NCBI GenBank assembly: GCA_001630475.1
Contig: KV419443.1
Span: forward strand, 141,514-205,513
Direction of reading: 5' to 3'
Length of the DNA stretch: 64,000 bases
Source of the DNA: Sistotremastrum niveocremeum HHB9708
Lineage: Eukaryota > Basidiomycota > Agaricomycetes > Sistotremastrales > Sistotremastraceae
In this document: piece after piece, positions 832-52,702 of the stretch
Layout: the number at the start of each line of letters is the position of its first letter
How positions within the stretch are numbered: the stretch's first letter is position 1
The notes under the pieces: model-generated
What the model was told of the DNA's origin: nothing
What the model saw: the letters and a program-made list of their open reading frames with translations, nothing else
The model's database searches: none
Program-made: the position numbers and the translations under genes

Positions 832-1407
832 TGAGATGATCGTTAATAAGAAGAGAGAAGCTGCAGACGCACCACAAGATTCAAAATGAACAAAAGCAGT
901 CTAGATTCTCACCGGTATATCATAGAATACCGGATTGAGAAAAATGTGAAGTGGATGACACGGGTTCAAATGTAAGCGCCCGAACATGTGGCATCGCCGG
1001 ACGGACGTCCGCTTCTATGTCCGGGTCTCGATCATTCCGGCTGTTCTAATTTTGACGTGCCGGCGTACCTGACCGGCATTGACAGAGAGACGCGCCTCGT
1101 CACAGCGTTACGGTCGTGGCTTCGCGCGTCGTTATCTCGCCAACAATTGAGCTCTCGTCGTCTGGTTTTCTTCTCCAGCCACCACCATCATTAGCCATCC
1201 AGCAAGTATCCTATCGTTGCACCCTCTATCCGCGCGCAATTCAAGTCATCTATATCGGAAATCTTTATTCCTGTGCGTGGCCAAATTCTCAGGCGTACGA
1301 AAGACTGACTAACGAATCGTCTGGGTCAGATACGAGCCACCTACTGGACCCCTTGTCTTGAAAGACCGGAAATCAACCCACGTTTAGCTCCTCTCTTGCC
1401 ACTTACG
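832..1407. other. Intergenic region between divergent genes
   Basis: It holds the promoters of the Ser/Pro-rich gene and of the first BTB gene. Two short plus-strand open frames (988-1361) have no paralogue and no clear coding character. Nothing else was seen. Confidence 0.4.
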
Positions 1408-2459
1408 ATGGAGGCCCCTCAATCGACACCCACAACCGCATCCCCTCATTTCCAGTTCCCCGACTCAGATCTCATCATCCGAACTCGAGACCGCGTCGAT
1501 TTTCGCGTCCATAAATCTCTCATGTCTTTCTCTTCGCGCGTATTCCGAGACATGTTGACCCTTGACAATATCACTCCCCCCACCTCGTCCACTCATGTCG
1601 TCGACGTCTCCGAAATCAGCAGCCACATGGAAGCAATCCTTCGCTATATCTATCCCCTCCCCTCCCCCGTTATCCAATCACTCGATCAACTCGTCGTCCT
1701 ATTGGAGATCGCCGATAAATATGACATCTCTGTCATCTTGATCGCTATCGAGGACTTCCTCCTCATCAATACCTTATGGAAGAAAGATCCCATCAAGTCC
1801 TTTGGATTATCCAAGAAGTTCAATCTCAAAAGGTGGCAGGCTGTCGTTGAACCGGAGATCGTCAAGGCTCCAAAACGTATCATGCTCAGTATGTCTTCGT
1901 CACACGTAGGCGATGCAGTTACTGCGGAAGATCTCCGAAGACTCGAGTTCTATCGACAACACAGAGTCTTGCGTGCAGGTGATATTCTCTTTCAACAATG
2001 TCTCTCAAACAAGTCTCGTTGCCATTGTCAGCGTGAAGATGAAGATGGCAATTCTTCTGATGAGGACTCCGATGAATCTGACCCGGAGGACGAGGGCGAA
2101 CGTTCGCCCTGCGAATCGTGGGAGATCTTTGTGGAGGTCTGTCGAGATCAACTGCTCTCACTACCAACTGCGGATATCACTCGTCCTTATCTTCGGAGTC
2201 TGGCGGTTGAGAAATCAGCGTGCAAAGATGCACATCGATACCTGTGTATCTCGAACGACTGGGCCGTTCGCATGGCCAAAAATAACATCCAAGCTCTCCC
2301 TTGGATCTTCCCCGCTGAATATGCACAAACGAAGGCATCGTGAGTCTTTACTCCGACTACTGTCATTCATTACTCACCGATGCAACCATATTTAGCTTGT
2401 ACAAGCCCAGAGCAGACTGGAGAGAGCGAGTGGAATTTGGATATGACAGAACTGCTTGA
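1408..2459 (+). CDS. BTB/POZ domain protein, copy 1
   Basis: Two exons, 1408-2339 and 2396-2459, joined at GCATC|gtgagt...tttag|C, give 331 residues. A BTB/POZ fold covers about residues 18-115, with the family's core pattern SDLIIRTRDxVDFRVHKSL then SRVFRDML and later LLEIADKYD. An acidic low-complexity loop lies at about 209-231, and the C-terminus ends YDRTA. BTB domains dimerise and often recruit partners to cullin-3 ubiquitin ligases; in this fungal family the partner is unknown. The ATG at 1408 matches the start context of copy 2, and no longer in-frame ATG exists. Copies 2 and 3 follow head-to-tail, sharing intron position and phase 2, so this is a local tandem expansion. Confidence 0.88.
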
Positions 2460-3118
2460 TATGTAGGGATGTGTTTCCCAACGCTTCCCCCCTCCTCGGT
2501 CCGTCTACCCCTATATTTATTCATCATCATTGTTCTCAATGTTCCCGCTCTAGCTGTCGTTGTTGTCATGACTGGATAGACCCCCGCGTTGACCCTCCAA
2601 ATGTTCTCTTAAACCTCTTATTCACTAAGCTATATTGTAGGATAGACGAGGATATTTTCTCATTCTTTCTCTCTCTCATATATACATATACGTTGTACTC
2701 ATGATATCTCAATTATTTTCCCGAATGCTCTCCCGTCGGGGACTCGATGCATTTTTCTTGCCGTGAGAATTTACGTCAAGCCATTTCGCGTCTTGTCACA
2801 GCGTTACGTCTTGACTTTTTTAGCTGTCAAGCTCATCGCCTCGCCAGCAACGTTGAGCCCTTTGCGTCTGTTTTTCATCTGCAGTCATCATCACCATTCA
2901 TCCATTCCTCCATTCGGCCTTTCATTAAGCATTCATCTCTAGAAGTTCCCCAAACGCATGGTCCAAACTCATTGACGGCGCAATTTGACGGTCATTTGAC
3001 GGTGCGTAGTCGATTCCTTAGACGTACTACACGACTAAAATAGCGATGCATCGGAGTCAGATTGCAACAGTCTTCACTGACATCGTATCTTGACAGCTAT
3101 CGTAATTTGCCGCCCACT
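2460..3118. other. Intergenic spacer between BTB copies 1 and 2
   Basis: Downstream sequence of copy 1 and promoter of copy 2. It is AT-rich around 2640-2700. The short open frames in it have no support. Confidence 0.4.
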
Positions 3119-4173
3119 ATGGAGGCTTCTCAACCGACATCATCTACAACTCTATCACCTCACTTCCAGTTTTCAGACTCTGATCTCATCATCCGGACTC
3201 GAGACGGAGTCGATTTCCGAGTGCACAGATCCCTCCTGTCTCTCGCCTCGCGTGTCTTCCGAGACATGCTGACCCTTGATCAGACTGCCCTCCCTTCTTC
3301 ATCACCCATTCACGTTGTTGATGTCTCCGAAGTCAGCGCTCACCTCGAAGCGATTCTGCGCTACCTCTATCCATATCCTTCCCCTGTTCTGACTTCCCTG
3401 GATCAACTTGTAGTATTGTTGGAAATCGCCGATAAATACGAATTTTCTGTCATCATGATCGCCCTTGAAGACGTTCTCGTCACAGGCCATTTCTGGAAAA
3501 CGGACAATATTCGTGCATTTGGAGTGTCCCGAAAATTTAAGCTCACGCGATGGCAGGCTGTCGTCGAACCGGAACTACTAAAGCAGCCTTACCATGTAAT
3601 GCATTCCGCTTCTCCTTCGAGCGAGGAGGATGCTGTGACGGCAGAGGATCTCCGGAGGTTTGACTGGTACCGGAACCACAGGGTTTCAGCGGCGGTAGAG
3701 CTCCTTCGCAAGCAGGAGCTTCCAGCAATCCCAATTTGCAATTGTAGACGCCTGCATGAATCTGATACTGATTCTGAGGATGGTGCGGGAGGTGTGGAAG
3801 ACGTCTCTCCCTGCGATGCTTGGCAACAATTCATCGAAGCGTGCCGCCGAAAGCTGCAGCTAGTTCCGACCGAGGACATTGCAGACTACACTATTCGAAG
3901 AGAGGCAATCAAGAACTCTTCTTGTGACGATGCTCATAGAAATTTAACGACATTCTATGAATGGTCCATCAGATCTGCAAACACCAACATACAAAAGCTT
4001 CCATGGATATTTCCCCACGAATACGAAGATTACAAAGCCTCGTGAGTCTGCCGGTCATTCTCAGATGCCTTGTTACTCATGCTATTTCTGATAGTCGAAA
4101 GCTTCCTCAGACGGACTGGAGGGATAAGGTGAACTTTGGATACGATAGACCTGCTGGGGTAATCTATTCGTAG
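3119..4173 (+). CDS. BTB/POZ domain protein, copy 2
   Basis: Exons 3119-4041 and 4095-4173 join at AAAGCCTC|gtgagt...gatag|T and give 333 residues. The protein aligns with copy 1 along its whole length: BTB core SDLIIRTRDGVDFRVHRSL, then SRVFRDMLTLDQ, LLEIADKYEFS, and the same C-terminal module ending PWIFPHEYEDYKAS before the intron. The last exon encodes a conserved tail (DWRDKVNFGYDRPAG). The acidic loop seen in copy 1 is shorter here (ESDTDSEDG). The phase-2 terminal intron is at the same residue. As with copy 1, a role as a protein-interaction adaptor is inferred from the domain only. Confidence 0.88.
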
Positions 4174-6663: not shown

Positions 6664-7219
6664 CTACGCGTGAGGCTCATATCCTAGCGATCGAATTTGC
6701 TGGCGAAGCATCCTGAAGTGCTCAGTCAATATATGTCGAGTTTTCAGTTTGACCATATGTACTTACCGGATAGCCTCCGCAGCGCTGATATCAACGTCCG
6801 CTTTTACTTTTGGGACCACGTGGGGACCTTCACCAAGTGTCGCTCGAAGATAACTGTGTGCATCGGTGCGACGTTTGCGACATGCTTTCTCGGCATTCCT
6901 TTGACTTTGCTGGGCTCCTGTCATACTGTTGGGTTCTTCGTTCGCTACACTGTCTGTCAAAGATGTGTCAGGTCAATATATTTTCTTTGTTTTCTTGTCT
7001 GCTCACTGTTGACAATGAACAGAGGATCGGGAACCGCGTTGCCATAAGTCTGCCCATAGGACATGAAGTTCGGATCTGCGGCATGTGGGAATCCATTCGA
7101 TTGACCGTTGAAGTTGTCATTCCAGCCTGTCACCCCACGTTCAGATGTGAGGCAAGCCGAAGTTGTTAACCGCGTCACTCACCATTCGGATAGTAGGAGT
7201 GCGCGTTGCCGTTGCTCAT
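6664..7219 (-). CDS. Small single-module bHLH-like protein, copy 1
   Basis: Four exons (7219-7183, 7126-7007, 6953-6767, 6712-6664) keep phase and give 130 residues. After a Gly/Asn/Pro-rich N-terminus comes a module resembling basic helix-loop-helix: basic stretch AEKACRKRR, helix 1 TDAHSYLRATL, loop GEGPHVVPK, helix 2 DISAAEAIRMLRQQIRSLG, then a short tail PHA. The last intron splits an Arg codon in phase 2 within helix 2. A paralogue with the same four exons lies at 16262-16806. bHLH proteins bind E-box-like DNA as dimers in the nucleus; the fold assignment here is inferred from pattern, not from a search. It is divergent from the two-module gene at 9388, with a repeat-rich promoter at 7340-7490. 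Confidence 0.7.
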
Positions 7220-7339
7220 TGTGGAAACGGTGTTAGCAGTGGTGATGAGGGAACCCATCCAGAGACCAGCTGGTGTTATATAGCGTGCATGATCTCAGTG
7301 TAGCAGCCACGCCGCCGAAGGGGGAAGGCGATCAAGCTC

Positions 7340-7490
7340 GTGCCACAAAGGATCGAACCAAAAAGCATCGAACCAGCGGACGTCGAGCCAGAACTGATAG
7401 AACCGAGTTGCATCGAGTCAACGAGGGTCGACCCAGACTACATCGAGTCAACGAGGGTCGACCCAGACTACATCGAACGCCAGAATAACA
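7340..7490 (-). promoter_or_regulatory. TCGAACCA-type motif cluster upstream of small bHLH-like copy 1
   Basis: About 120-270 bp upstream of the ATG at 7219. It contains two exact TCGAACCA words and several variants (TCGAGCCA, TAGAACCG, TCGAGTCA, TCGACCCA). A perfect 30-bp direct duplication occupies 7411-7440 and 7441-7470. A denser cluster of the same word lies at the equivalent place in unit C. Confidence 0.5.
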
Positions 7491-9200
7491 AGACCAAATA
7501 CAAATATTATGATAATATTAGTTTGGCGTACCTTTACTGATCTTTGCTGTGACGTTTAACCAGTAGTTCTTAGGTTATTTTGGTGAATAGACACGATAAC
7601 ATCCCGGCGGCCATGAAAGAGCCACTCTACTACTTATTGTAGTACTTTGGTTTCATGCTTCAAATTGCCTTGGAATCAAAGTGATCATAAACCGCGCATT
7701 TCGCTCCATAGCTGAACATCGTTCTGATCGTCGAATGGTGGTCGAGTAGAATACGAGAAAAATATCTGAACGAAAGTAGAGACTAAGAGTACGAAAGGTT
7801 GGATATACAGGATTCTGATCCTCCTGTCAGCTGTCTACAGGCAGGTTCTGACGCATCTTCTCACTCATGAGCGACGAAATTGAATGGTCAAAGTATTGGG
7901 ATGAATCTTGGTTTATACATCAGTCCATACAGTCACCCCTTCGAAAGTTGCTCTCCGCAAAAAATAGGTTGGACAGAGCTCAACTGCCAATGATTGATCT
8001 AGATTCCGGGCGTCGCAGCGCCGCGCGAATTATGTTATGACCCAGTATCATGATATACAAAAGAATATTTACTCGAGATATCCTTCGGGCGAAACCGTTC
8101 GAAGGAACCTCCTTTGCAGTAGGCCATTCCTGGAGAGGAACGCGAGTCCTCGGCCTTGACATTACACTGCGAGAGAGGTGTCGGTTACACGTGTTCAGGC
8201 CCGTATGGTCACTCAAATGAATGCGGATGTGGGAAACGATCTTGCACAATTTTGGCACGAAAGGTGTCAGTGGACACACTCAGGGCTCAAATATAGTCCA
8301 AGATGAAAAACTCAGAGCCCTGGGCACACGCCGTGATTAATGTAGATGAATTCACACAAGCTGAAGCCATAGCCGCCAGTGTATACATTCGAAGCTCTGG
8401 ATCCGTCTAGCGCTCCGCAGTCCAGGAACTCGAATGTATTGTGAGGAAGCCGAAAAACGTTTATGATTCGAGGAGACTTCGTGATTGATACGGCCGTGAG
8501 CTCACACAATTGAAAGTATAGAGAGGCGCCAGTGAACGTTGGCTGATGCAATACGGGTTTACTGGCTTTGTTTACTGGCCCAGGTCGGGGTTTGAATTTC
8601 AGAAATTCAGATTGATGCCAGACAGTGCCGCAACTACTACACGACAGAAGCTTGGCCCCCAGCGGGCTCTGTGTGAAACCCCTGATTGTTACCACTCAAC
8701 GAAGGTCTGAGCGCAGAACTGATCGCAGTTGGCGCACCACAATCATACCCTAACGCGTCGGCGGCGGCATCGAAAGGTCTATGGAGCATTCTGCATCTAA
8801 TTGAACAACGATGGCACTCCGGGATCTAATCATCGGTCTCCATGGAATCTCATCCAATATGCGAAGTTCTAAATATCTGACAGAGTGACGTCATATGGTC
8901 ATACTTCAAAGACAGCCTTCTATCGTGCCGTCATCGCGTTAGGGGCTTCATCCTTGATCCCGATCCCTCATTCCGTACGACTCTCCCATCGCACCTTATG
9001 TGAACTCGCCGTGCATCTTCACCTTCGTCGCTCTTCAGCACCAGCGGACGACATAACTCAAACCGACGTACTTACTGTAAGTTTGTTTCACAGCCGATTA
9101 TGATGATGATTCAAGGTGACATCTTCCCCTCAATTCTTGACACAGATCGAGACCAGATCTTATCACTCAATTCGGCCGATCGGTCCTCAAGAAGGGCATA
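7491..9200. other. Intergenic stretch with weak minus-strand open frames
   Basis: Open frames at 7980-8279 and 8312-8695 on the minus strand show no domain. A short block at 8705-8735 (GATCGCAGTTGGCGCACCA) recurs near 12222 and, less exactly, near 18248, each time upstream of a two-module bHLH-like gene. It may therefore be a retained promoter block or the relic of a shared gene. Confidence 0.3.
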
Positions 9201-9204
9201 GCGC

Positions 9205-9290
9205 GATGGAATGTGGTTCGATCAAGATGGCTCGAGTTGCAGGAGATCGAGCACGACTGGTTCGAGCGAGTCTGATCCGATCATCTCCGC
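9205..9290 (+). promoter_or_regulatory. TGGTTCGA motif cluster upstream of two-module gene 1
   Basis: Two exact TGGTTCGA words (reverse complement of TCGAACCA) lie about 100-180 bp before the ATG at 9388, within a block that recurs at 18687-18775 before gene 3 (both end near GATCATCTCCG). Confidence 0.45.
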
Positions 9291-9387
9291 TTGACATCCT
9301 GAGAAGAATAGTACGTAGGAAGGTTTATAGAGAGGATAAAACTAGGAATGAGAGGAGTTTCAGCTCACCCTTCCCCTTTCTAATTAA

Positions 9388-10563
9388 ATGGATGCAGTCA
9401 ACGAGCGGCCATCTGATTTTTCATCGAGTTACTACGCCTCCATTTCCAGCTCCTCGACCGGACCGTGGTTGAGCTCTCAACCACATAATACGAATCATTC
9501 GCACTCCCCGGATCCCTTCCATGCAACTTTTAGTCATGAACATCCTCCGACTCCTTCCGCTTGGCCTCCGCAACCCTATTCCTCCCGAGTCTCGATGCCA
9601 GTAGATATTCGTAGTAGCTCATTGAGAACTACTCAAACGAATTCCGATTCAGGTGAGTAATTTAGGCTCGTTGACGCAATGGCTTCTCACCTTTTTCCAA
9701 AATAAGATTCCATCGAAGATTCCGTTCCTCCACCGCCACCGCCACCGCCACCAGGACCATCAGCAACCGTTCGCGAAAAACGCCTTGCACGCGAAAAGGA
9801 AGAAAAACAACGAAGACAAGCCGAAAAACGGAAGGCACGACAGAAGAAAGCGGATGCAAAATATCATGGCAACGTCCGAGAAGCGTTGGAAGAATTGAAG
9901 GATACTCTCAGTGAAGGTCCCGGTGAATGTCCAACTACAATTAGTGAGGTGTACATCGCCGCCGGTGAAGCTGTTATGTGAGTGCTCTCGCTATGATGAA
10001 TCACGTAGAACTGAGGGGATTGAGTTTGTAGAAGACTTCGTCGACAGGATTATGATCGCGGACCGGATGAAGGTTTGTACCCCTGCGGAATGTCACTCTA
10101 CCGCGAATCTCATATCTTCTGTATGCTAATCCAGAAGATTACCTCTCCATTAGGGCCGGCAAACCACCTTGCAAAGCTAACCATCAACTATTCACAGCGA
10201 CTCGGAGCGACTCGGAGGATTCAGATGACAGGCGTGAGTGAACGAGATGTCATCTTTCTAATCTATCTGATTCCGTCGCTGCAGCGTCCAAGAGGAGACG
10301 GCGCTCCGAGCGTGCGGACGGCGCTAGAATGCAACGCAGAGCTGAAAGGAATTATCGAAAACATAGATCCGACGCGTTGCGTTGGTTGAGCAAGGTTGTC
10401 TCCGACCCTTCATCTGGTGATGGTGTTTGCGAGGTGATACATGCGGCAATTGTCGAGATCAAGTACGTTCTCCAATCACAACGCTAGACATAACATTGAC
10501 AAGCTAGTCTGCAGGTGGTATCGAGGGACTCTTCGGAGAAGGGGAAAACCACCAGTCGCATAA
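9388..10563 (+). CDS. Protein with two bHLH-like modules, gene 1
   Basis: Six exons (9388-9652, 9707-9977, 10032-10072, 10135-10233, 10285-10462, 10515-10563) join in phase to 300 residues. Residues 1-90 are Ser/Pro-rich and lead into a ten-proline run. Module A has a long basic stretch, helix 1 (YHGNVREALEELKDTL), loop SEGPGECPTT and helix 2 (ISEVYIAAGEAVIRLRRQD). Module B has AERNYRKHRSDALRWLSKVV, a Gly/Ser loop and VCEVIHAAIVEIKWYRGTL, ending RGKPPVA. In both modules a phase-2 intron cuts helix 2 at the same place. Module B keeps the Glu-Arg dyad that contacts E-box DNA in canonical bHLH proteins; module A has Asp there. A nuclear DNA-binding role is inferred. Confidence 0.72.
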
Positions 10564-11235
10564 GCACACAGAATCCGAAGTCGAAGAGATCTCGAGAAGT
10601 CATGAAGGCCGGGATGCGAGCAGATTTCCATATTCGCGCCTTGAATATACGACAATTGTTTGCCCAGGGCAACCGAGAAGATCACGAGTCCATCACCATC
10701 TTGTCCATCGAAGAGATGTTCGTCGACGCCGTTCAATCAATCTTGACTGCTTTCAATTACCCGTGACCAAGATGAGAGTGCCTAGCATCATCGGCACACG
10801 CTCCAGCATTGAAAGAAAGTTAGTCTTCGAGGCGGATCGGGGTGATTCTCAGGTATGAGAATAAATTGCAAGGCGAAATTCCAATGAAGTCAAGTGTTCA
10901 AACCGAGCACCAGTCTATTAGGGACTCGCTAGGATCGCGCGTAGAAGTAGGCTCAGGATGTAACGTCAGTCCGGGCGAGCTGAAAGGATCTTGAACGATG
11001 CCGCTGAAAGGCGATTCTGTGACATGGTATTCGGCGGCGCAAGAAATTGTAGATATGAGGAACGGTCTCATGTCGCACATAGTTTATATTCACTCTGGCG
11101 AAATTATAGACAAGGGATCGCAGCCGTGATATAGCCATATCACAAGCAGAAATGATATCAGCACTGTTGACGCAGGATCAGGACGAAAAGCAGAACCATA
11201 TCGTAGCGATCGCATACGAAAATACAACGATCATT
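10564..11235. other. 3' flank of two-module gene 1
   Basis: No gene. The first 130 bp after the stop (from AATCCGAAGTCGAAGAG) are conserved after all three two-module genes, which fits segmental duplication or a conserved 3' UTR. Confidence 0.45.
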
Positions 11236-11764
11236 TCAAGACATTACATCTTCCACACTGCCGCCTCCCGTCGCGGTGCTCCACCAGAACCACCCCAACG
11301 CTTTCCATCCAATCCACAGTCCGATAATGCCCAAGACGACGTAGAGGATGATTCGAGTTTGATGAGTGCTGCCGCCCCTTGCAGAAGATAATCCGAAAGC
11401 TCGAGCGAAGCAGGTTGTAGTTGTTGATAAGGAATGGGTAAAATTGGAGAAGGTATTCGACTTCGGGGCGGATGGGGAAGTCAATAGGTAGTCGACTAAG
11501 TTATACGGAATAGACGTACCCCTTCATACAGCATCAGATTCTGTCGCTCTGCGTCATCATCAATGTCGTTGGTAACCTTTGAAGAACGAATTTCAGTCAA
11601 ATCATTCATGGCCGAACAAGACCGAAACGAGGGGACTGAAGACGACGTACGGCTCGCAATTTCCGGATCATGGCATGTAGATCATCCTGTCTCGTATCGG
11701 TTGCAGCTCCTAAGTATCCTCAGTGGGTCGATCCTGTCTTGTTTTTCGTGAAGTCGATGTTGTC
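11236..11764 (-). pseudogene. BET1-like SNARE, copy 1, damaged first exon
   Basis: Exons 3 (11460-11236) and 2 (11576-11520) are open and match the intact copy at 20692-21214: VTNDI, AERQNLMLYEG, FSNFTHSLS, and the membrane segment ILYVVLGIIGLWIGWKAL. The expected first exon (ending at 11651) still encodes DDLHAMIRKLRA, but a frame change and an in-frame stop precede it and the normal ATG is not present. A shorter protein from another start cannot be excluded. The exon 2/3 junction is phase 0 as in the whole copy. It is convergent with the two-module bHLH-like gene upstream. Confidence 0.65.
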
Positions 11765-12639
11765 GTCTGGAAGTGAGAGCTCTTCGGTCCTGATTTTGCG
11801 TTTGAAACATCGGATCGATGGGAACAGCTCATTCATAATCACGTTCTCGGATGTTTTGCCAGGATGCCATTTGAACTGAATCTACTCTTAAGCTCTCGCA
11901 ACCAAAGGTTCACATTGAAAAAAAGCACCTCGGCGATGTAGCCATTTGGACGACTGAACAGGCCGTTGAGCACCAGAGATACGTATTATGATACAGAGAG
12001 GATGTCAGAAAGTCAGTTCAGGTTTCGATCAGAGAGACTTGATTCATAGACAAGGATGAAACGAGAAAGACGGAACGAACCTACGGGCGCCTAAGCAAAG
12101 CAGGACGGCGTGCGGCATCCGGAATGAATTCCTTGCAAGAATGCATTCCATTTCCTTCACTCAGTTGAGCCCATCCTAGCCCTTGGACAAAGATGAAAAA
12201 CTCTTGCACAAGACTGCCAGTGATCGCAGTTGGCTCATCAATCATTGAGATCGTAGTTGATACAATTCCGACCCTGACCCACGTCGGGTCGATTGCCTCG
12301 CGGTTGCCATCTCGCCGGATGTGAGAAGCATCCACAATGGCATTCCTTCGCTATGCATATGGTTACACTTTCGAAGATCCTTAACGGGATATAGGAATAC
12401 CTCTTGACTACCGACAACGTGTATGACTCGCCGTATGTTTGTCACGGTCTTGTTCTTGCTGCGTAACCTAACAGGCCACGTGTTTACGAAGAGAATCGTT
12501 GGATTACCTCGTCTCACACCTGAAATTGATCTTTTTCATTGACAAACTGCAATCGGTCAAACATAAAAGTACTGATTCCCGCTACCGATTCTCCTGTGCT
12601 GTACATTTCGTCGAGTCGGCCCATCAGTGTGAAGAGTGC

Positions 12640-13602
12640 ATGGCTGCATCCTTTCACGAGTCTCTAGACTCTACATGTACACCTGCACATTGCCCCCCTT
12701 CGAATCTCCCGCCTTTCTCCGCTATCTCTCAGCCTTCGTCTATCGCCACGATCCCTGATAGCTCGATAAGGACAGCACGCCCGCATCTCGTTCTTCCTCC
12801 CGTACACACCGTTCGTGAGAAACGTCTTGCTCGTGAAGAGGAAGAAAAGCGACGGAAGCGAGGCGAAAATCGGACGGCCCGACAGAAGAAAGCTGATGAA
12901 AAATATCATGACAACGTCCGAGAAGCGTTGGAAAATCTGAAGGATACTCTCAGTGAGGGTCCCGCGGAACTTCCGACTACAATCAGTGAGGTTTATATCG
13001 CCGCTGGTCAAGCTAGCCTGTGAGTGCCATCGGGATCATGGACTGGTGTGAAGCTGAGGGCATCGAGCGGACAGAAAACTTTTCCGACAATGTGATAAAT
13101 ACGAACAGGATCATGGTTCGCACGACTGCAGGATATCACTCCATTCCGAATTTCTTAACTTCTGTGTGATAATCTAGAAGACTGGCTGACTGGGTGGGCA
13201 GGCGGACCCCCTTGCAAAGCCAAGACTGAGAGATTCACGACAAGCGACTCGGAGGATTCAGAGGACAGGCGTGAGTAAACTAGATTCCGTCATTTCAATC
13301 TATCCGACTCATTTCTTGCAGCGTCCGAGACGAGATGGTGCTCCGATCGTGCTTACGGTCCCAAAGTGCAACGTCAAGCTGAAAAGAAATACCGAGAACA
13401 TCGATCCGATGCGCTCCGCTGGCTGAGAAGGGTTGTCTTTTGGGGCCCATCTAGTCACAGTGTTTGCGAGGTGATAAAGCAGGCAAATGACGATATCAGG
13501 TAGCTTCTCTCCAATCATAACGCTGAACCTGACATTGACAAGCTGGTCTCCAGGTATTATCGAGAGACACTACGGGGACGCGGAGATATACCAGTCGCCT
13601 AA
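12640..13602 (+). CDS. Protein with two bHLH-like modules, gene 2
   Basis: Five exons (12640-13019, 13075-13115, 13178-13270, 13322-13499, 13554-13602) give 246 residues. The N-terminal segment (NLPPFSAIS, SSIRTA) matches gene 3, but the first intron of genes 1 and 3 is absent, so the first two exons are fused and shortened. Module A: basic REKRLAREEEEKRRKR, helix 1 YHDNVREALENLKDTL, helix 2 TTISEVYIAAGQASLKLFRQ. Module B: AEKKYREHRSDALRWLRRVV and VCEVIKQANDDIRYYRETL, ending IPVA. All splice phases equal those of genes 1 and 3. The first-exon start is the least certain part; the ATG at 12640 was chosen by alignment with gene 3. Confidence 0.68.
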
Positions 13603-14374
13603 TTTCGGAATCCGAAGTCGAAGAGACCTGCAGACTCGTGATGCGGTGCCAGATGCGAGCAGATTTTCATCTTCGCGCCTTCAATATACGACAATTCGTT
13701 GCTCAGAGTAATCGAGAATAACCGTGTCCATAATGAGCATGTCAATCTGAGAGGCTTTCCAAGACACTTTCGAATCGAAACTGCAAAGCGTCCTAGTTCG
13801 CTTTGACGAAGGCGACAAGCGTTTAGGCTTCCGGCACACACTCCCACAGTTGACTGTATTCGTTGAGGCAGTTCGGGTCCATCCTCAAGCGCCTGTAGAA
13901 TAGTCTAAGGAGGGTTGAAGAAGGGCGAAGTTTCGATGAAATTGAGTGCAGCCCAAACACTGGTACATAGAAAATCCGCTCCGCAGTCGGACCATTGCAT
14001 CGGACGGAAGTAGCCTTGGAAGTAGCTTGGTTTGCATCGTCGGGCGGTGATTTGAAGGCTGCATATGCTTGAACGAATGTTGTGAAAGGGTGGCATGCGC
14101 TGATTGTGCGTTCGATGTATGGATAAATCAGACTCGAGACCGAGTCTCTAGATAAGTCTAAGACACGAGATTCGACGCCGAAAGAACTTGTAGATCTGGA
14201 GGAATTCTTCTGCAGCGCATAGCGCAATTCCACGCTAGTGAAGTTAACGATTAAGCGTCGCAGTCCTGATATTAATATATTACAAGCAGAAATGACATCA
14301 GTCCTGTCGACGAGAGGATCAGCATGTAAAGTAAAGCCGCATTGTAGTAATCACATACCAGCCTCCCTAACATT
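13603..14374. other. 3' flank of two-module gene 2
   Basis: Begins with the 3' block shared by all three genes (AATCCGAAGTCGAAGAG at about 13609). A minus-strand open frame (13823-14233, 136 codons) has no recognised domain and no open paralogue in the other units; I do not call it a gene. Confidence 0.35.
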
Positions 14375-14915
14375 TCAAGACATGATATCATCCACGCTGC
14401 CGCCTCCTGGACCACTGCTCCACCAGAACCAACTCAAAGCTTTCCACCCAATCCACAATCCGATGATGCCCAAGACGACGTGAAGGATTATTCGAGTCTG
14501 GCGAGTGCCTCCACCTGTTCCGGAAGATAATGCGAGGGCTCGCGCGAAGCAAGTTGTAGTCGTTGGTAGGGAAATAAGTGAAATTGGAGAAGGTAATCGA
14601 CTTCGGGGCGGATGGGGAAGTCAATAGGTATTCGACTAAGTTATAGGGAATAGACGTACCCCTTCATACAGCATCAGATTCTGTCGCTCTGCGTCATCAT
14701 AAATGTCGCCATAAATGTCGTTGGTAACCTTTGAAGAACGGATTTCAGTCAAATTGATGATGGCCGTACAAGACCGAAACAAGAGGCGTAGAGAGACAAC
14801 GACGTACGCTTCGCAATGTCCGGATTTTGGCATGTAGGTGGTCCCGTTTCGTATCATTGGGAAGCTCGTCAGTATTTTCGGTCCATTTAGTCTGGTCACC
14901 GAGTGAAGTCGAAAA
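14375..14915 (-). pseudogene. BET1-like SNARE, copy 2, decayed
   Basis: All three exons of the family can be traced. Exon 1 keeps frame (ENTDELPNDTKRDHLHAKIR) but the start codon position reads TTT (about 14915-14913). Exon 2 (14728-14660) is open and carries a 12-bp tandem duplication giving NDIYGDIYDD. Exon 3 begins FSNFTYF and then shifts by one base, so the membrane segment is read out of frame. Three independent lesions make it a pseudogene. Its position convergent with two-module gene 2 repeats the arrangement of units A and C. Confidence 0.75.
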
Positions 14916-16261
14916 TGTCGTCCAGCAAACGAGTTTTTCAATCCTGACGTCGCGCTTGAGACCTCGAGTTGAGGGGAAACAGCTCAACCACATGCATGTT
15001 TCAGATATGGTCGCCAGAATGACAATCGGGATCTACGGAATTTGGTTGTAAGCACTCGCAACCAAAGGTTCGAATAGAAAATAAGCACCTCGGCGATGTA
15101 ACCACATGTAGGACTGAGCAGGCCGTTGAGCTGCTTGAGCACGATAGAAACGTCAAGAGATACAGATAGGATGTCAGAAAGGCATTCCAGGCTTGGAATG
15201 GAGAGAGGGGACCGATAGACAAGGATGAAACGAGAAAGACTGGGCGAACATACGGGCGTCTAAGTAAAGCAGGACGAATACGTGGACGCCGGAGTGTGTC
15301 GCCGAAATGCCCGAAACTGCCAAACATGCCACGACATCAAATGCTGTGCGCTTTACAAGTAACTCTTGCTCTTACTTGGCTTGCGAAGCCTTCGCTGCTT
15401 TTCTCTGGGAGTCGACCATATCAGAGATCTATGGATTACAGATGGCGTCAAAATTCTCTGTGACTCGCAGATTTAGCTGCATCTACTGTGAATCTTCGTT
15501 AGGCCTTGGAAAGCTCTGATGGTAGCCCGAATTTGTGTGGATGCGAGAGGGCGGGAGCCGATTAACAGGACAGGTCTGGCAATTCTGATATCCTGTTCTA
15601 CGGAAAGGGGATCAGTCAAAGGTTCGTCTCACGTTGATGGACCCCACAAAGTGAACAAGGCTCATTGTTCAGACAGGAGTCCAAGTGATCGCCCCGGTAT
15701 ACTCATTGCGTCTCATAGCAAATTCGTGATTGACTTTTCGCAAAACTTTGACTCTTGGGCCTCAGAGCACCTTCTCCGACCTCACGACGGGCTTCTTCGT
15801 CTGACACAAGGGCAGGGTCACTATTGTAACTCTCTTGTGAGTGTTCCTCCCTTCTTTCAGAAACGATCTAGCTGATTAATCTTCTCATCAGGCTTGAAAA
15901 CGAACGCGTTGGACTCAGACTCGTCCGCATCCCAATAGCCCCGGTATTTGAAATTTTTGACCACGTTGCCATGAACTTATGCCATGCTTACATAACATCA
16001 CCAGGTGCCAAGATTTTTAACGATCGCCTCAAAATTCCGTCTGCAGTGAAGTCGAACTGATCTTATGTCTATTCCTCGGAGATCCGCGTGTGGATGGTCT
16101 CTGTCATCTGATGGTTGTGCGCTAAGACTTCGAAACCTAACCTCGTTATCAGAAGCACATAGTGACCTATATACAACATCGTGCGACTCAGACTATCTCT
16201 ACTAGAATGCGAAAACGACACAGTTGGAAAATTCATCAATTGCGCGTACGCCGACAAATGT
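14916..16261. other. Stretch without a confident gene
   Basis: Joins unit B to unit C (border about 15290). Plus-strand open frames at 15307-15519 and 15519-15875 lack domains and do not correspond to open frames in unit A. Confidence 0.35.
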
Positions 16262-16806
16262 CTATGCGCGAGGCACCTGTCCAAGCAACTGGACCTGCTC
16301 ACGAAGCATACTGAAATTTAATCAGTCAATGGCTTCCCTTTTTCCAAGATTGAAAAGAAATCTGCCTACCGAATAGCTTCCGCAGCGCTGATATCAACGT
16401 CGGCTTTCACCCTTGGAATCACGCGAGGACCTTCACCGAGCGTCGCTCGCAGATGATTATCTGCGTCGGTGCGTCGCTTCCGACATGTTATTTCGGCCTT
16501 TCTTTGGGTTTGCTGGGCGACGGTCAATCCGTTTGGGTCCTTGAAGCCTTCACTGTCTATCATAGATGTGTCAATAATGATAAATATATTTCTTGGCGAT
16601 CACTCACTGTCGACAACATTGTGGAATTCGGGAACCATGTTGCCATAAGGCACGAAGTTCGGATGCGTATATTGTGGGAATCCATTGATTGGAGGATTGA
16701 AATTGTTATCCCAACCTGCTTCCGGAATTGAGATGTGTGACAAGCCGAACTCGTCACGAGCATGCTCACCAGCTGGATAAGATGAGCTTGTGTTGCCGTT
16801 GTTCAT
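16262..16806 (-). CDS. Small single-module bHLH-like protein, copy 2
   Basis: Exons 16806-16770, 16715-16608, 16556-16370 and 16310-16262 join to 126 residues with phases identical to the copy at 6664-7219. The module reads KAEITCRKRR, helix 1 TDADNHLRATL, loop GEGPRVIPRVK, helix 2 DISAAEAIRMLREQVQLLG, tail QVPRA. The N-terminus (NNGNTSSSYPAG) is Asn/Ser rich. The basic region plus two amphipathic helices suggests DNA binding as a dimer, by inference. Because this and its paralogue keep full reading frames through four exons while the nearby BET1 copies decay, the gene is probably under selection. Its promoter holds the densest TCGAACCA cluster in the window. Confidence 0.7.
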
Positions 16807-16914
16807 TGTTGAAAGAGAGATATGACACTGTTGATGAGGGAGCATCCGGAGAACGGGCCCAGTTATATAGAGGATGCATGATCTCAGTGTAGCAGACAAG
16901 CCGCCGAAGCCTGA

Positions 16915-17065
16915 AGGCTAGAGAGCATCGAATCGAAAGCGTCGAACGAGGAACATCGAACCAAAGAGATCGAACCAGATGTATCGACCGAGCAGCATCG
17001 AACAAGAGGTTTCGAACCAAAGACATCGAACCAAAGACATCGAACCAGAAATATCGAGCCAATAG
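16915..17065 (-). promoter_or_regulatory. TCGAACCA motif array upstream of small bHLH-like copy 2
   Basis: Five exact TCGAACCA words and several variants lie within about 130 bp, some as direct AAAGACATCGAACC repeats. The array is about 110-260 bp upstream of the ATG at 16806, the same place as the cluster in unit A, although the internal repeat structure differs. Confidence 0.55.
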
Positions 17066-18680
17066 GAAATAACAAGAGCAAATACCAGATATATTGCGAA
17101 TACTTTCTACGACCATGCTTATAGTAGCCTACCTTTGACCGGGTCTTTGTCGGGCAGGATTGCAAAGGTGCAGCGCATCAAACAAAGTACACCAGAAATC
17201 ATACAGAAACATTCCGGTGATCATTGAAGGCTAGATAGGACGGACTTAATGTTCCTGAATTTCTTGCAGCGTGAAAGCTGGCCAGTCTTGAATTGGATAC
17301 TTTGCGATAGACAGCGCGATCCTCCCTTGTGTGAGCCCCTTGTTGAGACAGAGATTGAGAAAAAAATCAATAAATGCCCACTACTACATGACACGAAATC
17401 ACAGCTATCAAATATGTATACTTTGAACAGAGGACTCGCGCTCTAGCGCTGTGTTCTTCTCACACGGAGCGCAAAAACGGACATGGGCGTTTCCACGGAA
17501 TTCCGACCTCCTGTCCTTAGGTGTACAAGAAAGTGGTAGGTCTTCGAATATTCAGAGAGGTTCTGAGAAAGAAGTCAAACCGTCTGATTGGCGGACCAAT
17601 TCGGGCTACATTACAAGTGTGAAAGCATTTCTAAGCCGGTGTGGCCCGCTCCGTCCAGCTAGAAGTAGAATGACTAGGGTCATCAAGCAAAAGTCTCCAA
17701 TTCCGCGCATACTTCCTTCACAGATATTAGGTCAGGACTCGGATCATTGGAAGCAGCAATAGAGAAGTGTGCTCATACGTGCCAGTATTAGTAACACTGC
17801 ACTTCGAGATTATCTAAATCAAAATGCTGTCAGAGATATGACTGCAAAGTACACAGCCTCAGTTGATGCACTGGCATCCGGGGTTAGAATCACCTTCTTG
17901 GCCATGATACGGGAAGCGCTTAGTGCCCTTGATCTCTGTACCTTGCTGGAATCAGGACCGCATGAATTCAAAGCGCTCCTAAACTGACGCCGTTCATGGG
18001 TGCCGACTCCGGTGGGCTTTCATGCTGAAAAAAGCTGAACAGGGCCACAAGATGGTCTAGTAGCTCAGACGCGCGTTCAATGGTACAAGTCTCGGGGAAG
18101 TGGGTTGATCGCGTTGCGACAATCGCATGGGAGTACAGTATACGTAGTGTCTGCACTGGGGCAAGTCGGAAGTCGGAACGGAATGAATCATATCCACCCC
18201 TTCAACTAGTAAGCCAATGCGGATTGTTGGCAGAAGTTTGCACAGAGCTGAGCGCGGTTGGCTCACCAGGATTACGTCCCAGACGTCTTTACATACATCC
18301 ATGACCCTGAACGACGCCGCAACGGGGTCCAATCTCGCCGAATACTGTATGAGGCTGAAGCCTCCACGACGCCATTTCCTTTGCCAGGAAGGCACTTCCG
18401 GTGAAAAGAATCTGAAAACATGTATGATCCAGCGCGTACAGTATGTGGACTCGCCACATTTTCGTCATGCTCTTACTGTTGAGCCTAGCAGGCCACGTGT
18501 TACTGAGGGAATAAGTGGGTACCGTCGTCTCCCATGCCCGATGGAGTATTAAGGCTGACAGATTTTATTTAAGCAAAGAAAGTATGGCTCCTACTACCGA
18601 TCATTGATCGGCTGTGTTCCCCGATGATTTGGCTTATCACCAAGGAGGATGCTTCCGCAGTAGCATGGCTGCGCTGAATC
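17066..18680. other. Spacer between divergent bHLH-like genes
   Basis: Short open frames on both strands (for example 17451-17762, 17968-18156 and 18057-18395) have no domain and are not open in unit A. The 18240-18560 part matches 12170-12517 in unit B, so it may be the relic of a lost gene. Nothing is called. Confidence 0.3.
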
Positions 18681-18686
18681 GATGCT

Positions 18687-18775
18687 ATGTGGTTCAATCG
18701 ATCTTGTTCGAGGGATAGAGGTTCGAACATCACTGGTTCGAGCGAATCTGATGCGATCATCTCCGGTGACGTGAA
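18687..18775 (+). promoter_or_regulatory. TGGTTCGA-type motif cluster upstream of two-module gene 3
   Basis: One exact TGGTTCGA plus near matches (TGGTTCAA, AGGTTCGA, TTGTTCGA) lie about 115-200 bp before the ATG at 18889, aligned with the block before gene 1. Confidence 0.45.
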
Positions 18776-18888
18776 AGGAAACTAGGAAGCTTGGCGGAGA
18801 AGGTCAGAGAGTATAAGATTGAAAAGGTCGGCAACGCCAGCTTCAATCTTCCTTCGTCACCGACGCCTTCATTAGAGAGCTCTTTTCT

Positions 18889-19979
18889 ATGATCATGGAC
18901 TTTACATTCGGCCACCTCCCAGATTCGGCAGCGCCTTATAGCAACCATCAATTTTTCCCTCTGTCTACGGACTCGACACCTACGCATTGGCACCCTCCGA
19001 CTCTACCGCCTTTCTCAGCCATCTCCCGACCTTCTTTGACCCCTACGGTTCCCAATAGCTCGATACGCACAACACAGTCGGTTTCCGATCCAGGTGAATG
19101 TCTTCAGAGTTGTTGACGTATTCAAAAATCTCAGCGTATCTGAGAAAGACTCAAACCCAGATCCCGTTCTTCCTCCCGTACAAACGGTTCGAGAAAGACG
19201 CCTTGCCCGAGAAAAGGAAGAAAAGGAAGAAAAGCGACGGAAGCAAGTCGAAAAACGGAAGGTCCGACAGAAGAAAGCCGATACAAAATATCATGGCAAC
19301 CTCCGAGAAGCGTTGGAAGAGCTCAAGGATACTCTCAGTGAAGGTCCCGGAGAATGTCCAACTACAATTAGTGAGGTGTACATCGCCGCCGGTGAAGCTG
19401 TTATGTGATTGCCATCGCTACTCTGACTCAATATCGAGCTGATGGCATCGAGAGAGCAGAAAACTTCACCGACAAGATTGTGAGATCGATCCGGATGAAG
19501 GTTCGCACACCTGCCTGATATTATCACTCCACTTCAAATCTCATATCTTCTGTATGCTAATGTAGAAGATTTCCTCTCCCGTCGGGCAGGCGAACCACCT
19601 CACAAGTCAAACCATCGACAGTCCACAGCAAGCGATTCGGAGGAGTCAGATGATAGGCGTGAGTGACCGAAATGCCATCATTGAAATCTACCTGATGCAG
19701 TTGTTGAAGCGTCCAAGAGGAGACGGCGCTCCGATCATGCTGACGGTGCGAAAGCGCAACGTCAAGCTGAAAGCAATTATCGAGAACATAGATCTGATGC
19801 GCTGCGTTGGCTCAGCAACGTTGTAATGTCATATGGAGGTGTTTGCAAAGTGATACATGAGGCGAATGAAAGCATCAAGTACGTTCTCCAATCACAACGC
19901 TAGACATAACATTGACAAGCTGGTGTACAGGGCATATCGAGCAGATATTCGGGTACGCGGAGAATCACCAGTCGCATGA
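18889..19979 (+). CDS. Protein with two bHLH-like modules, gene 3
   Basis: Six exons (18889-19093, 19149-19404, 19460-19500, 19566-19658, 19710-19878, 19931-19979) join in phase to 270 residues. Module A: EKRKVRQKKADTKYHGN, helix 1 LREALEELKDTL, loop SEGPGECPTT, helix 2 ISEVYIAAGEAVIKLHRQD. Module B: AESNYREHRSDALRWLSNVV, loop, VCKVIHEANESIKAYRADI, ending ESPVA. The linker between the modules is Ser/Asp/Glu rich (TASDSEESDDR). The donor after module A is a weaker gtgatt. A nearby second ATG at 18895 is an alternative start. All three genes end in the same Pro-Val-Ala tail. Function is inferred as a transcription factor-like regulator; no canonical bHLH match was run. Confidence 0.72.
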
Positions 19980-20691
19980 GTACACCAAAATCCGAAGTCG
20001 AAGAGGTCCGGAGAAGTCATGCCGGGCGGATGCGGGCAGATTTCCATCTTCATGCTTTCAATGTACGACAATTCTTGACTCAGTGTAACCGGTCAGATCT
20101 CGAACCCATCATCCACGCGTTCAGTCGGGAGGCATCCGATGATGTAATCAGATCTACCTTGACCTCAATTCGCTGCCATGAAGACGAAGATGAATGAGAG
20201 CGCATAACGTCTTGAGGGACACACTTCGGCATTCAAGATTATTCGTTGAGATTGATGGATCCATTCTCGAGCGGAGTCGAGCCCAAGGCGAAATTTGACG
20301 AATCTGAAATCGATGGCAGATTCGCAACGACCGCGCAGAGAAATAAGCTTGGGATGCAACGTCGATCCGGGTTTCGAGGAGCTCAACCGAAGTGATGGCT
20401 CTAAAGGCGGGATCGCGTTCTCAACATCCGTGTATCAAACTTGGGGGGAAGTGAAAGGGGGAGGTTCGATTGTCATATACGATTTTCGGCGGCGAAATAA
20501 ATTGAGAAGGGAACGCACGCTTTCATGTCGCGCAAAGCTCAGCCTTACGCGAGTGAAATCGTACACTAGGCATCGCAGCCTTGATATTGACATAGTACAA
20601 GTAGAAACAATATTAGCACTGTTGACAAGAGGATCAGGATGAAAAGCAGAATCGAATCATAGTGATCACGTACTTGTATCCATCAACCATT

Positions 20692-21214
20692 TCAAGACAT
20701 TACATCTTCCACGCTGCCGCCTCCCGTCGCACTGCTCCACCAGAACCACCCCAAAGCCTTCCAACCTATCCACAGTCCGATAATGCCCAAGACGACGTAA
20801 AGGATTATTCGCGTCTGACGAGTGCCTCCGCCTGTTGCGGAAGATAATCCGAAAGCTCGAGCAAAGCGGGTTGTAGTTGTCGATAGGGAATGGGTGAAAT
20901 TGGAGAAGGTATTCGACTTCGGGTCATGGGGGAGTCAGTATGTGATCAGAGGCAGGAGGTGGTGGTGGACGTACACCTTCATCCAACATCAGATTCTGTC
21001 GCTCCGCATCATCGTATATGTCGTTGGTGACCTTCAAACGAGAAACATCAATCGAGATGTCCAAAGCCGTACAAGACCGAAAGGAGAGGAATAGAGAACG
21101 ACGTACGCCTCGCAATGTCCGGATCTTCGCATGTAAATCATCCAGTCTCGTATCGTTCTGCAATTCATAAGTGTCCTCAGTCGATCCTGTCTGACCGCCG
21201 CGTGATGTTGACAT
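20692..21214 (-). CDS. BET1: BET1-like Qc-SNARE, the only whole copy of three
   Basis: Three exons (21214-21107, 21031-20975, 20916-20692; both introns phase 0) give 129 residues, close to the usual 118-142 of BET1. The N-terminus is short and polar. A SNARE-like heptad region runs from LDDLHAKIRTLRG through DDAERQNLMLDEG and FSNFTHSLS to FARAFGLSS. A C-terminal membrane anchor (about residues 92-115, ILYVVLGIIGLWIGWKAL) is followed by a short tail. BET1 is a Qc-SNARE for ER-to-Golgi vesicle fusion. The NDIYDDAERQNLML part corresponds to the TQN-containing core of known BET1 proteins. As the other two copies are damaged, this is probably the working gene. It is convergent with two-module gene 3. 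Confidence 0.7.
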
Positions 21215-22325
21215 TGTCGTCCAGAAAGGCGAGCTTTTCGATCCTGATTCCGGGACTCAGATCTCAGGTCTATGAGGATGGAGGAAGGGAGCAGAGTCGA
21301 CGTTTCAGGTATTCGTGATGAGTGATACTTGACTATCTTCCAAATTTCCTACAGAGCACTGTTAATAAGAGCTTCAGGGATGAGATGATCGCCTCAGCAT
21401 CATGACCGGTCAAGGGTACGTCATCGGCAAATGCCGGTATATCAGGTAGGTGTGGTGGGTTGTCGAAGAGGTCCTTAAATAAAAAAAGTAACGATTTTTT
21501 TTATTGTTTCTACAGGCTTATAACTAGGTTTGGTACTATACATGAGTAAACCCAACATGTTTTGCACCCTCTCGTCATGTCCACAGTCGTAGGCACCTGG
21601 ATTGACCCTTATTTGGATCTTCGGGTGGCGATAAACTAAGGTCCGGGATCGGCAGCATTTCAATCTCCGACGGCATCTCGGAGATAAAGGACATAAGCGG
21701 ACATGACCGTCGGCTACGGAGATAAGGCCTCCTAAATAGGCTAATCGCCGAGGTGGGTAGTCGCCGAGGGGCTTCATAAAAAAAAGACCTGATATACAAA
21801 AAAAAAAAAAAAAGGCCCCTTGTGACCGGTAGTACGCACTCAATAGGCTGTTAAAGCAGATGAATAGGTATCACAACAAAAGCTTGAAGTCAAAAGGGTG
21901 TTACAGGTTCTGGTTCGACAGGTGGGGGCGATGGTCAAGAATAAGGCGAGCAGCACGACGCAGACGATGAGCACGGGCGTCTAACCACCGCGGGATCAAA
22001 TTGGGATTACGTGGACGTCAGCCGCAGATTTTTCACTGTCGCTCATAATCAAGACGGCCTCGCTATCACTATTGGGATAACATTCTGAACTTTGGGTGGG
22101 ATGCGATGCTCAGGTTCGATATATCATTTTCTATGACCAAACCTATTTTCTGACCTTGCCAGTCGCACTCAATATATATTGAAGGCCTAGGGACACGTTT
22201 TCATACTGCCCTCAAAATGCCAACGCAAAGCTAGAATTTCAAGGCCTCACAAGACATCGCTGGGCGGAGCTCCCTATAAGCCCGAAACCCTAGACACGAT
22301 TCCCTATCCAACTGGACTCAATGCC
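21215..22325. other. Intergenic stretch with homopolymer runs
   Basis: No convincing gene. Oligo-T/A runs occur near 21478-21500 and 21775-21815 (a run of about 17 A). A minus-strand open frame spans 21475-21843, but it includes the homopolymers and has no domain. Confidence 0.35.
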
Positions 22326-39478: not shown

Positions 39479-40262
39479 ATGAGTAGCGAGGAAACTCACG
39501 GTCCCTATCTCTCAGTCCCTGCTCAACCAGTCAGCCCCAGTCCCGTGTTCACCCCACCCATCCGAACTTCATCCTCATCCATGGGAAGTGCAAAGACCAT
39601 CGCAGTGGACATCCATCCCTATCCTTCCTCAACAAAAGCCGAAATCAAACATACCGAGTTCCCCCAACACACCGTCGCCGCTCGTCTTGCTCCAGTACTA
39701 GACGCAGCCCGTCGTACTCGCCAAAAAGCTTCCCGAAAAGCAAGACATGCCGAGCATTCGCTCAACCTCGCCATCGGTCTTCAGATCGTCATCGGTGCTT
39801 TAACAGCCGGATTGAGCGCAGTCACACCTGGCCGTTCGACGCAGATCATGAACGCTATTCTTGGGATATTTGCAACTATCGTCTCCGGCTTCTTGGCGCG
39901 GATGCGAGGCTCAGGCCAGCCCGAGCTTTCCATAAATACAAAACGTGACATGGATAAGGTACGTTACCTTGGAACACTATATTGATAGAGGATACTGAGG
40001 ATGATTTCGCCTAGCTCATCCGCGATATCGAGGCCTTCATCGTCGACTGGGGCCATAAGACACCTCGATTCACCGTAGCCGCTGAGACCGAGAACCCCGC
40101 TTCCGTCGAAGATCAGGAATTAGCGAAGCGCATTGACTACTTTCGTCGAGAATATGGCTTGTTGGAAGCCAATGCCCATTCGTGAGTCCATTAATTAACC
40201 CATTTCGCACTTCTTGACAGCCTTCCTCTATCAGCAAACGTCAACCGGCTCCGCCAGTCTGA
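39479..40262 (+). CDS. Fungal SLATT-domain membrane protein, copy 1
   Basis: Exons 39479-39958, 40015-40181 and 40235-40262 join in phase to 224 residues. After a Ser/Pro-rich N-terminus and a basic helix, two hydrophobic segments at about 95-114 (LNLAIGLQIVIGALTAGLSA) and 122-140 (IMNAILGIFATIVSGFLA) are followed by LARMRGSGQPELS and LIRDIEAFIVDWG. This is the layout of the fungal SLATT family, two-transmembrane proteins related to bacterial SLATT effectors of nucleotide-sensing conflict systems and thought to form pores. The fungal role is unknown. The last exon adds only SKRQPAPPV, identical in copy 2 at 49133-50866. The intron after DMDK is also shared. Confidence 0.82.
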
Positions 40263-52238: not shown

Positions 52239-52682
52239 TCAAACTCCTTCCCCCCCTCTCTTTCTTCCTTTCTTTTCCTTTCTTTTTCTCTTTCTTCTCG
52301 GGCCGAGATACCCACTACTTTGGGTGGAAGACCATTTTGGAGCCTCGTTGTGGATCCCCACGTATAGGGGGCTCGGAGATCTGCCACTAGACGGGCTGGG
52401 AGTCATAGATCTGCGACGACGTGGGCTGAGGCTCCGAGATCTGGCACGAAGGTAATCAGGTGAGACGGGGTTCAAAAATCTGCCACGAGGTGGGCTGAGG
52501 CTCATAGATCTGTCACGAGGGTACCCAGTTGGGCCGGGGTTCAGAAATCTGCTAGGTGAGACGGGGCCCAGAAATCTGCCAAAAGGTGAGCCGGGGCTCA
52601 GGAATCTGCCACGAGGTGGGCTGGGCGACGGTCTGAAACTGACACTGAAAGACCATTCCTTCGCATCAATTTTCGTTGATTT
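52239..52682 (-). repeat. 30-bp minisatellite that encodes an SP/R-rich repeat on the minus strand
   Basis: Between about 52377 and 52640 there are some eight imperfect units of 27-39 bp, most 30 bp, each beginning (G/A)ATCTG on the plus strand. On the minus strand the frame stays open from 52682 to the stop at 52239 and reads ten-residue units such as RFLSPGSPFG, RSMSLSPPRG and RSRSLSPRRR, then a Lys/Arg tail (RKRKRKEKKGRKRGG). All unit lengths are multiples of three. No upstream ATG precedes the array in this frame; the first is at 52505. It begins just beyond the stop of the kinase at 52703 and might be an exon of an unseen gene, or chance. Confidence 0.6.
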
Positions 52683-52702
52683 TTAAGTTCATTAACCACC
52701 TA

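Follow-up and report, generated by a model that had tools for sequence, protein, structure and literature searches.

A 64,000-nucleotide (nt) stretch of contig KV419443.1 of Sistotremastrum niveocremeum HHB9708 (hereafter, the window; G+C content 48.8%) carries a family of small genes, each encoding one or two copies of a module that resembles the basic helix-loop-helix (bHLH) domain. Five gene models, predicted from the sequence and spliced by script, with gene ends and last-exon lengths counted by hand, contain eight such modules at the coordinates given in a first-pass annotation of the same DNA. All introns of these genes are of the GT-AG type and 51-67 nt long, with phases 1, 2, 1, 1, and 2 in g9388. 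Their short introns give the genes a fungal appearance, and a SLATT_fungal domain encoded elsewhere in the window fits a fungal origin. Three plus-strand genes, g9388, g12640, and g18889, encode two modules each (A and B), with Pro-Val-Ala at the C-terminus, as the annotation had described, and 2 minus-strand genes, m7219 and m16806, encode one. The six-exon structure proposed for the double-module genes was recovered for g9388 and g18889 but not for g12640, which has five exons because its first intron is absent. In a six-frame search of the window, a profile of the eight modules retrieved, besides these modules themselves (E ≤2.1e-23, a circular result given that the profile was built from them), a ninth module that was absent from the profile (E 4.7e-7). 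The latter belongs to a sixth, single-module gene, m32526. Thus, the family is not confined to positions 6664-19979, where it had been placed: five genes lie there and one outside. In total, the window contains at least 6 genes and at least 9 modules (Table 1).

The eight modules are related beyond chance, as judged from the alignment columns and the position of the intron in helix 2. Six columns are invariant across the eight modules and five across all nine, and the helix-2 intron lies in phase 2 and in the same codon in 9 out of 9. A phase-1 intron leads into the module exon in all cases except module A of g12640, the last exon measures 49 nt including the stop codon in all six genes (hand count), and the six chains share a C-terminal P-x-A signature (PVA in three, PHA, PRA, and PIA in the others). 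The common position and phase of the helix-2 intron, together with the 49-nt last exons, indicate that all nine modules derive from one origin. In a small module tree, for which the root is arbitrary and long branches were flagged, modules A and B form separate clades, each with support of 99/98, showing that the joining of the two modules predates the triplication of the double-module gene. Furthermore, an alignment matches the 41-nt exon that follows the helix-2 intron of module A in the double genes to the single genes' C-terminal exons. A plausible history is that an ancestral gene made up of a module exon and a C-terminal exon of 49 nt underwent duplication and the copies were then joined. 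The first copy's C-terminal exon would have become exon 3, of 41 nt, and the module after it would have stayed in frame. The resulting two-module gene would then have been triplicated along with an adjoining gene.

Using the bHLH site numbering that we assume to apply to the modules, module B displays Glu9, Tyr12, and Arg13 in all three genes. Module A displays Asp9, Tyr12, and His13 in all three, with Asp at the position of the Glu of B, as had been reported. With Asp9 and His13, the canonical Glu9/Arg13 E-box contacts are not found in A, which can thus be at most a helix-loop-helix (HLH) module without them. Among the single-module genes, m7219 and m16806 encode Glu9, Cys12, and Arg13, and m32526 encodes Glu9, Tyr12, and Lys13; Tyr12 is hence present in 7 of the 9 modules and replaced by Cys in the remaining 2. 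The basic pattern ascribed to module B, with its Glu-Arg or Glu-Lys dyad, is seen in two copies (E-K/R-x-Y-R) but not in g18889, which has E-S-N-Y-R, that is, Glu-Ser at sites 9-10. An Arg-rich stretch precedes the contact residues in 2 of the 3 B modules. Helix 1 carries a net charge of −3, −3, and −3 in A and +3, +3, and +1 in B. Of 16 bHLH sites compared, 9-10 are matched in A and 10-12 in the other modules. Of the nine positions that we take to form the hydrophobic core (sites 16, 20, 23, 27, 53, 54, 57, 61, and 64), 6 to 9 are hydrophobic in each module, and, by the same assumed numbering, L23, V53, and A57, three of the five invariant residues, occupy core sites.

In profile comparisons, the nine-module profile matched a hand-compiled reference set of bHLH sequences in register over 59 columns (hhalign, 70%, P 4e-5), as opposed to 0.3% for bZIP and 0.1% for homeodomains, and none of 200 column shuffles of the profile reached the observed score (best 15.2 versus 27.4). 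Subsets combining two kinds of modules also matched (A and B, 67.2%; singles and B, 59.1%; singles and A, 51.4%). When the profile was searched against 177,635 PDB sequences, with matches collected up to E 10, seven were obtained, headed by Max (E 0.41) and SREBP-1a (E 0.44), both in register. The eight-module profile yielded three matches, including Max (0.41) and SREBP-1a (0.47). In the reciprocal comparison, a bHLH profile scored against 2,084 segments of the window placed module B of g9388 first (E 0.044), that of g12640 sixth, and module A of g9388 thirteenth; when it was scored against the nine spliced modules singly, five gave matches, each score being equalled in at most 1 of 200 shuffles. 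AlphaFold models of modules A and B of g9388, computed from exon pieces taken directly from the window, consist of two helices and a loop in both cases: residues 2-49 and 59-70 of 71 in A (predicted local distance difference test [pLDDT] 83.6, predicted template modelling score [pTM] 0.44, which is low) and residues 2-39 and 46-65 of 66 in B (pLDDT 76.5, pTM 0.41, also low). Amphipathy of the helices was judged from the core sites rather than computed. An HLH fold of the modules is thereby supported.

A number of results nevertheless weigh against the bHLH assignment. Pfam returned no HLH match for any of 12 sequences (six raw exon modules, the five spliced proteins, and the sixth gene), and NCBIfam, a bacterial and archaeal library, none for the two proteins tried. 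Foldseek searches of the PDB with module B gave 7 matches, all with E of 7 or worse and none to a bHLH protein, and those with module A gave no match. Taken alone, module A matched the bHLH set at 3.6% over 21 columns and homeodomains at 2.0%, and can therefore not be told from a homeodomain by this measure, and the values for module B alone (19.2%) and the single-module genes alone (9.9%) are weak. The other five PDB matches of the nine-module profile are non-bHLH proteins, and none of the E-values is significant by itself; the top match of the eight-module profile (E 0.18), ranking above Max, is an uncharacterised non-bHLH protein. Unrelated frames are interspersed in the scan of the window with the bHLH profile, including 2 of the first 3 open reading frame segments, and 4 of the 9 spliced modules gave no match when scored singly. 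With m32526 as a lone query, nothing relevant was found. Finally, site 16, usually hydrophobic in bHLH proteins, is Arg in 5 of the 9 modules (all three B modules and two single genes), and a basic residue occupies site 50 in only 2 of 9.

Some of these results would also be expected if the modules were helical hairpins or coiled coils unrelated to bHLH domains, with basic stretches serving in RNA binding or another role. The negative Pfam and Foldseek searches, the inability of profiles to separate module A from homeodomains, the several non-canonical bHLH sites, and the first helix of 48 residues in the model of module A are all compatible with such an origin. We nonetheless regard it as unlikely, given that the nine-module profile matches bHLH proteins in register and neither bZIP nor homeodomain, that Max and SREBP-1a head its PDB list, and that L23, V53, and A57 are invariant. 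Foldseek would, moreover, probably have low power on a lone two-helix monomer. On balance, an HLH identity of the modules appears likely, and is likelier for B and the single-module genes than for A. A bHLH identity of the family is probable. The first-pass annotation had proposed such an identity, to be examined with bHLH profiles and structure models of the spliced proteins: the nine-module profile and the two-helix models of both modules of g9388 lend it real but indirect support, but Pfam, Foldseek, module A on its own, and the weak single-sequence matches do not. The family thus exemplifies divergent bHLH-like genes that are invisible to Pfam.

Among characterised bHLH proteins, SREBP offers parallels in sequence, namely Tyr12 in 7 of the 9 modules, E-K/R-x-Y-R in 2 of the 3 B modules, and SREBP-1a as one of the two leading PDB matches. 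We take fungal group F4 to be the SREBP group, and the shared Tyr12 fits the place of SREBP-1a in that search. Among fungal bHLH groups, Tyr at site 12 is reported in F4 only (PMC3502508). The family differs from SREBP in its short chains (95-300 amino acids [aa]), in the presence of two modules in three of the genes, and in lacking a membrane segment, the highest 19-residue hydropathy across the six proteins being 0.98. SREBP, by comparison, has a membrane anchor and a SCAP-binding tail, whereas the present chains terminate no more than 16 residues past the last intron; 15-16 residues remain after the helix-2 intron in the chains of B and of the single genes, leaving no room for a long zipper. 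Max and group B proteins are approached through the first PDB match, in register, and through Glu9 and Arg13, which the three B modules, m7219, and m16806 have preserved. That match, however, is at E 0.41, no module has proline at site 28 (0 of 9, by eye), and sites 16 and 50 depart from group B as described above. Like Id and plant atypical HLH proteins, which have a weakened basic region, module A keeps an HLH core without canonical E-box contacts; unlike them, it retains many upstream basic residues and shares its chain with a module that has DNA-reading residues. Searches of a viral contig collection and of a genome contig collection without eukaryotes, made with a single module A, produced 44 and 260 pattern matches, respectively, none of which was confirmed.

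Pairwise ratios of nonsynonymous to synonymous substitution rates (dN/dS), obtained by a simple counting method, with dS saturated in the N-terminal part in one pair, indicate coding constraint on the double genes. Across the three genes, dN/dS is 0.39-0.50 for the whole gene, 0.19-0.35 for A, 0.41-0.57 for the linker, and 0.56-0.70 for B, and equals 0.27 for the two single genes; the frames are open in all copies. Because dN/dS is lower in module A than in any other region, and this in all three pairs, the possibility that it is a decaying copy was rejected despite the loss of canonical contacts. It could still be argued that A and B are made from separate transcripts or that the double genes as a whole are decaying copies, as the exon joins rest on sequence prediction, evolution is fast in module B and in the N-terminal part, and one of the three copies has no first intron. 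We consider this very unlikely, considering the dN/dS values for the whole gene and for A, and considering that exons 3 and 4 are open with equal intron phases in all three copies, between which the DNA gaps are of 0 or 6 bases only. Separately, g9388 and g18889 agree at 49 of 52 positions in the helix-2 intron of module B, the highest value among 14 gene segments compared (the flanking exons are identical at 131/169 and 35/50 positions, and the other introns are also lower); with the g12640 copy, agreement is at 42 of 52 positions. This identity may stem either from a function or from gene conversion over a short tract; the window gave no Rfam match at gathering scores.

In each of the three double genes, a single open frame encodes both related modules. 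One bHLH module per chain is the norm, as the first-pass annotation had stated, and the REF-1 family is a nematode group of HES-related bHLH proteins. A precedent for two modules, which that annotation does not mention, does exist, however: the C. elegans REF-1 family, comprising six proteins, is defined by two bHLH domains per chain (PMC3606163 and PMC4683635). REF-1, HLH-25, HLH-29, and the other members resemble the double genes in having two bHLH or bHLH-like domains per chain and in forming a set of paralogues. The likeness is one of architecture, with no sequence relation claimed, and the present family differs in that its module A has neither Glu9 nor Arg13 and single-module relatives adjoin. 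While two bHLH domains per chain are already known, searches of the open-access literature yielded no paper on a fungal two-bHLH protein, nor one on a local family of fungal type in which single- and double-module members occur together.

The explanation that we favour, giving it an even chance of being correct, is that the genes form a divergent local family encoding small regulators of the bHLH type with fused A-B chains, in which B reads DNA and A serves for pairing. Its members would probably be nuclear regulators. B would be the DNA-reading half, resembling the Tyr12 (SREBP-like) class, and A, keeping the HLH core but having Asp9 and His13 where the canonical E-box contacts would lie, would be mainly a pairing module, its partner being either B of the same chain, across the linker, or another family member. 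The opposite charges of helix 1 (acidic in A and basic in B) would suit A-B pairing, and a linker of about 55 residues (hand count) should permit it within a chain. bHLH factors act as pairs, with specificity governed by pairing; one DNA-reading and one non-reading module per chain suggest, as far as residues can tell, a built-in partner for a gene switch. Three observations run counter to this explanation: B, the presumed DNA reader, is less constrained than A, the gene branching order differs between the A and B clades of the small tree, and the E-box CACGTG shows no excess near the six genes.

A homodimer of the REF-1 type, formed between chains, with one module on E-box-like DNA and the other stabilising the complex but with no folding of A on B, is a possible though somewhat doubtful alternative, and one that overlaps with the favoured explanation, in which the partner of A is left open. 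Homodimeric binding to E-box-like sites has been reported for REF-1 proteins (PMC4683635), and a role of their second bHLH domain in stabilising protein contacts has been suggested (PMC3606163). The strong constraint on A suits such a pairing domain equally well. Against this alternative, the opposite helix-1 charges suit A-B pairing at least as well. Less probable is a single-chain bHLH pseudo-dimer, in which A would fold on B of its own chain and the protein, free of partner choice, would read an asymmetric site through a reading half (E9, Y12, and R13 in B) and an altered half (D9 and H13 in A) within one polypeptide. Its origin would be a read-through fusion between two single-module genes in tandem, the joined exons of which are still visible. 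Whichever partner A has, single- and double-module relatives lie side by side here and their exon record is readable, so that the step from a free to a built-in partner is testable in one family.

The upstream regions do not suggest autoregulation through canonical E-boxes, an idea that was dropped: the 64-kb window has CACGTG at 10 places, and one of the 6 genes has it in the 300 nt preceding its start codon. The copy that the upstream regions of g12640 and g18889 have in common is not kept in g9388. A different motif, TGGTTCGA, occurs 14 times in the window on both strands, and 10 of these occurrences read in the sense direction and precede the start codon by 130-241 nt in 4 of the 6 genes: two for m7219, five for m16806, within a 14-nt tandem array, two for g9388, one for g18889, and none for g12640 and m32526. 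Random 300-nt windows contain the motif in 1.9% of cases, with the family promoters included. The promoters are partly related within each gene type, and comparison between the two types gave no blastn match at E 1e-3 over 400 nt. TGGTTCGA is a possible candidate for a shared control site, as judged from its placement.

Table 1. Predicted genes, modules, and associated features in the window.
Feature	Positions	Strand	Basis	Description
g9388, double-module gene	9388-10563	+	Predicted by splicing, end hand-counted	300 aa, C-terminus PPVA; six exons: 9388-9652, 9707-9977 (module A), 10032-10072, 10135-10233, 10285-10462 (module B), 10515-10563
g12640, double-module gene	12640-13602	+	Predicted by splicing, end hand-counted	246 aa, C-terminus IPVA; five exons: 12640-13019 (includes module A), 13075-13115, 13178-13270, 13322-13499 (module B), 13554-13602
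g18889, double-module gene	18889-19979	+	Predicted by splicing, end hand-counted	266 aa, C-terminus SPVA; six exons: 18889-19093, 19161-19404 (module A), 19460-19500, 19566-19658, 19710-19878 (module B), 19931-19979
m7219, single-module gene	6664-7219	-	Predicted by splicing, end hand-counted	130 aa, C-terminus EPHA; four exons: 7219-7183, 7126-7007, 6953-6767 (module), 6712-6664
m16806, single-module gene	16262-16806	-	Predicted by splicing, end hand-counted	126 aa, C-terminus VPRA; four exons: 16806-16770, 16715-16608, 16556-16370 (module), 16310-16262
m32526, sixth gene, single-module	32130-32527	-	Profile match and splice pattern	95 aa, C-terminus SPIA; exons: 32527-32506, 32448-32232 (module), 32178-32130
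Module A of g9388, folded piece	9766-9978	+	Exon part	Helix 2 shortened by the intron; D9, Y12, H13
Module B of g9388, folded piece	10287-10484	+	Exon part plus 7 intron-encoded residues	E9, R10, Y12, R13
Helix-2 intron of module B	10463-10514 (g9388), 13500-13553 (g12640), 19879-19930 (g18889)	+
TGGTTCGA upstream sites	7353-7375, 16956-17047, 9214-9265, 18734-18741
Triplicated neighbour gene	11021-12107, 14162-15276, 20485-21249	-

A small minus-strand gene, with an open frame of approximately 95 aa and a hydrophobic C-terminal segment, has been triplicated along with the double-module gene; the one copy tested had no Pfam match above the cut-off. Downstream of the double genes, the first 100 nt past the stop codon (10565-10664 for g9388, with counterparts beyond 13602 and 19979) show 78-81% identity from copy to copy, and in all three an open frame past the stop reads MRADFH(I/L)(R/H)A(F/L)N(I/V)RQ. 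Elsewhere in the window, DNA similarity revealed other local duplications, within 1396-3573 and 45272-58280. These comprise a duplicated pair, the tested member of which matches BTB (E 2.1e-11), and a three-copy gene, the tested member of which matches protein kinase (E 2.5e-9). A SLATT_fungal domain, a two-transmembrane (2TM) effector domain, is encoded at 39371-39982 (E 2.7e-25).

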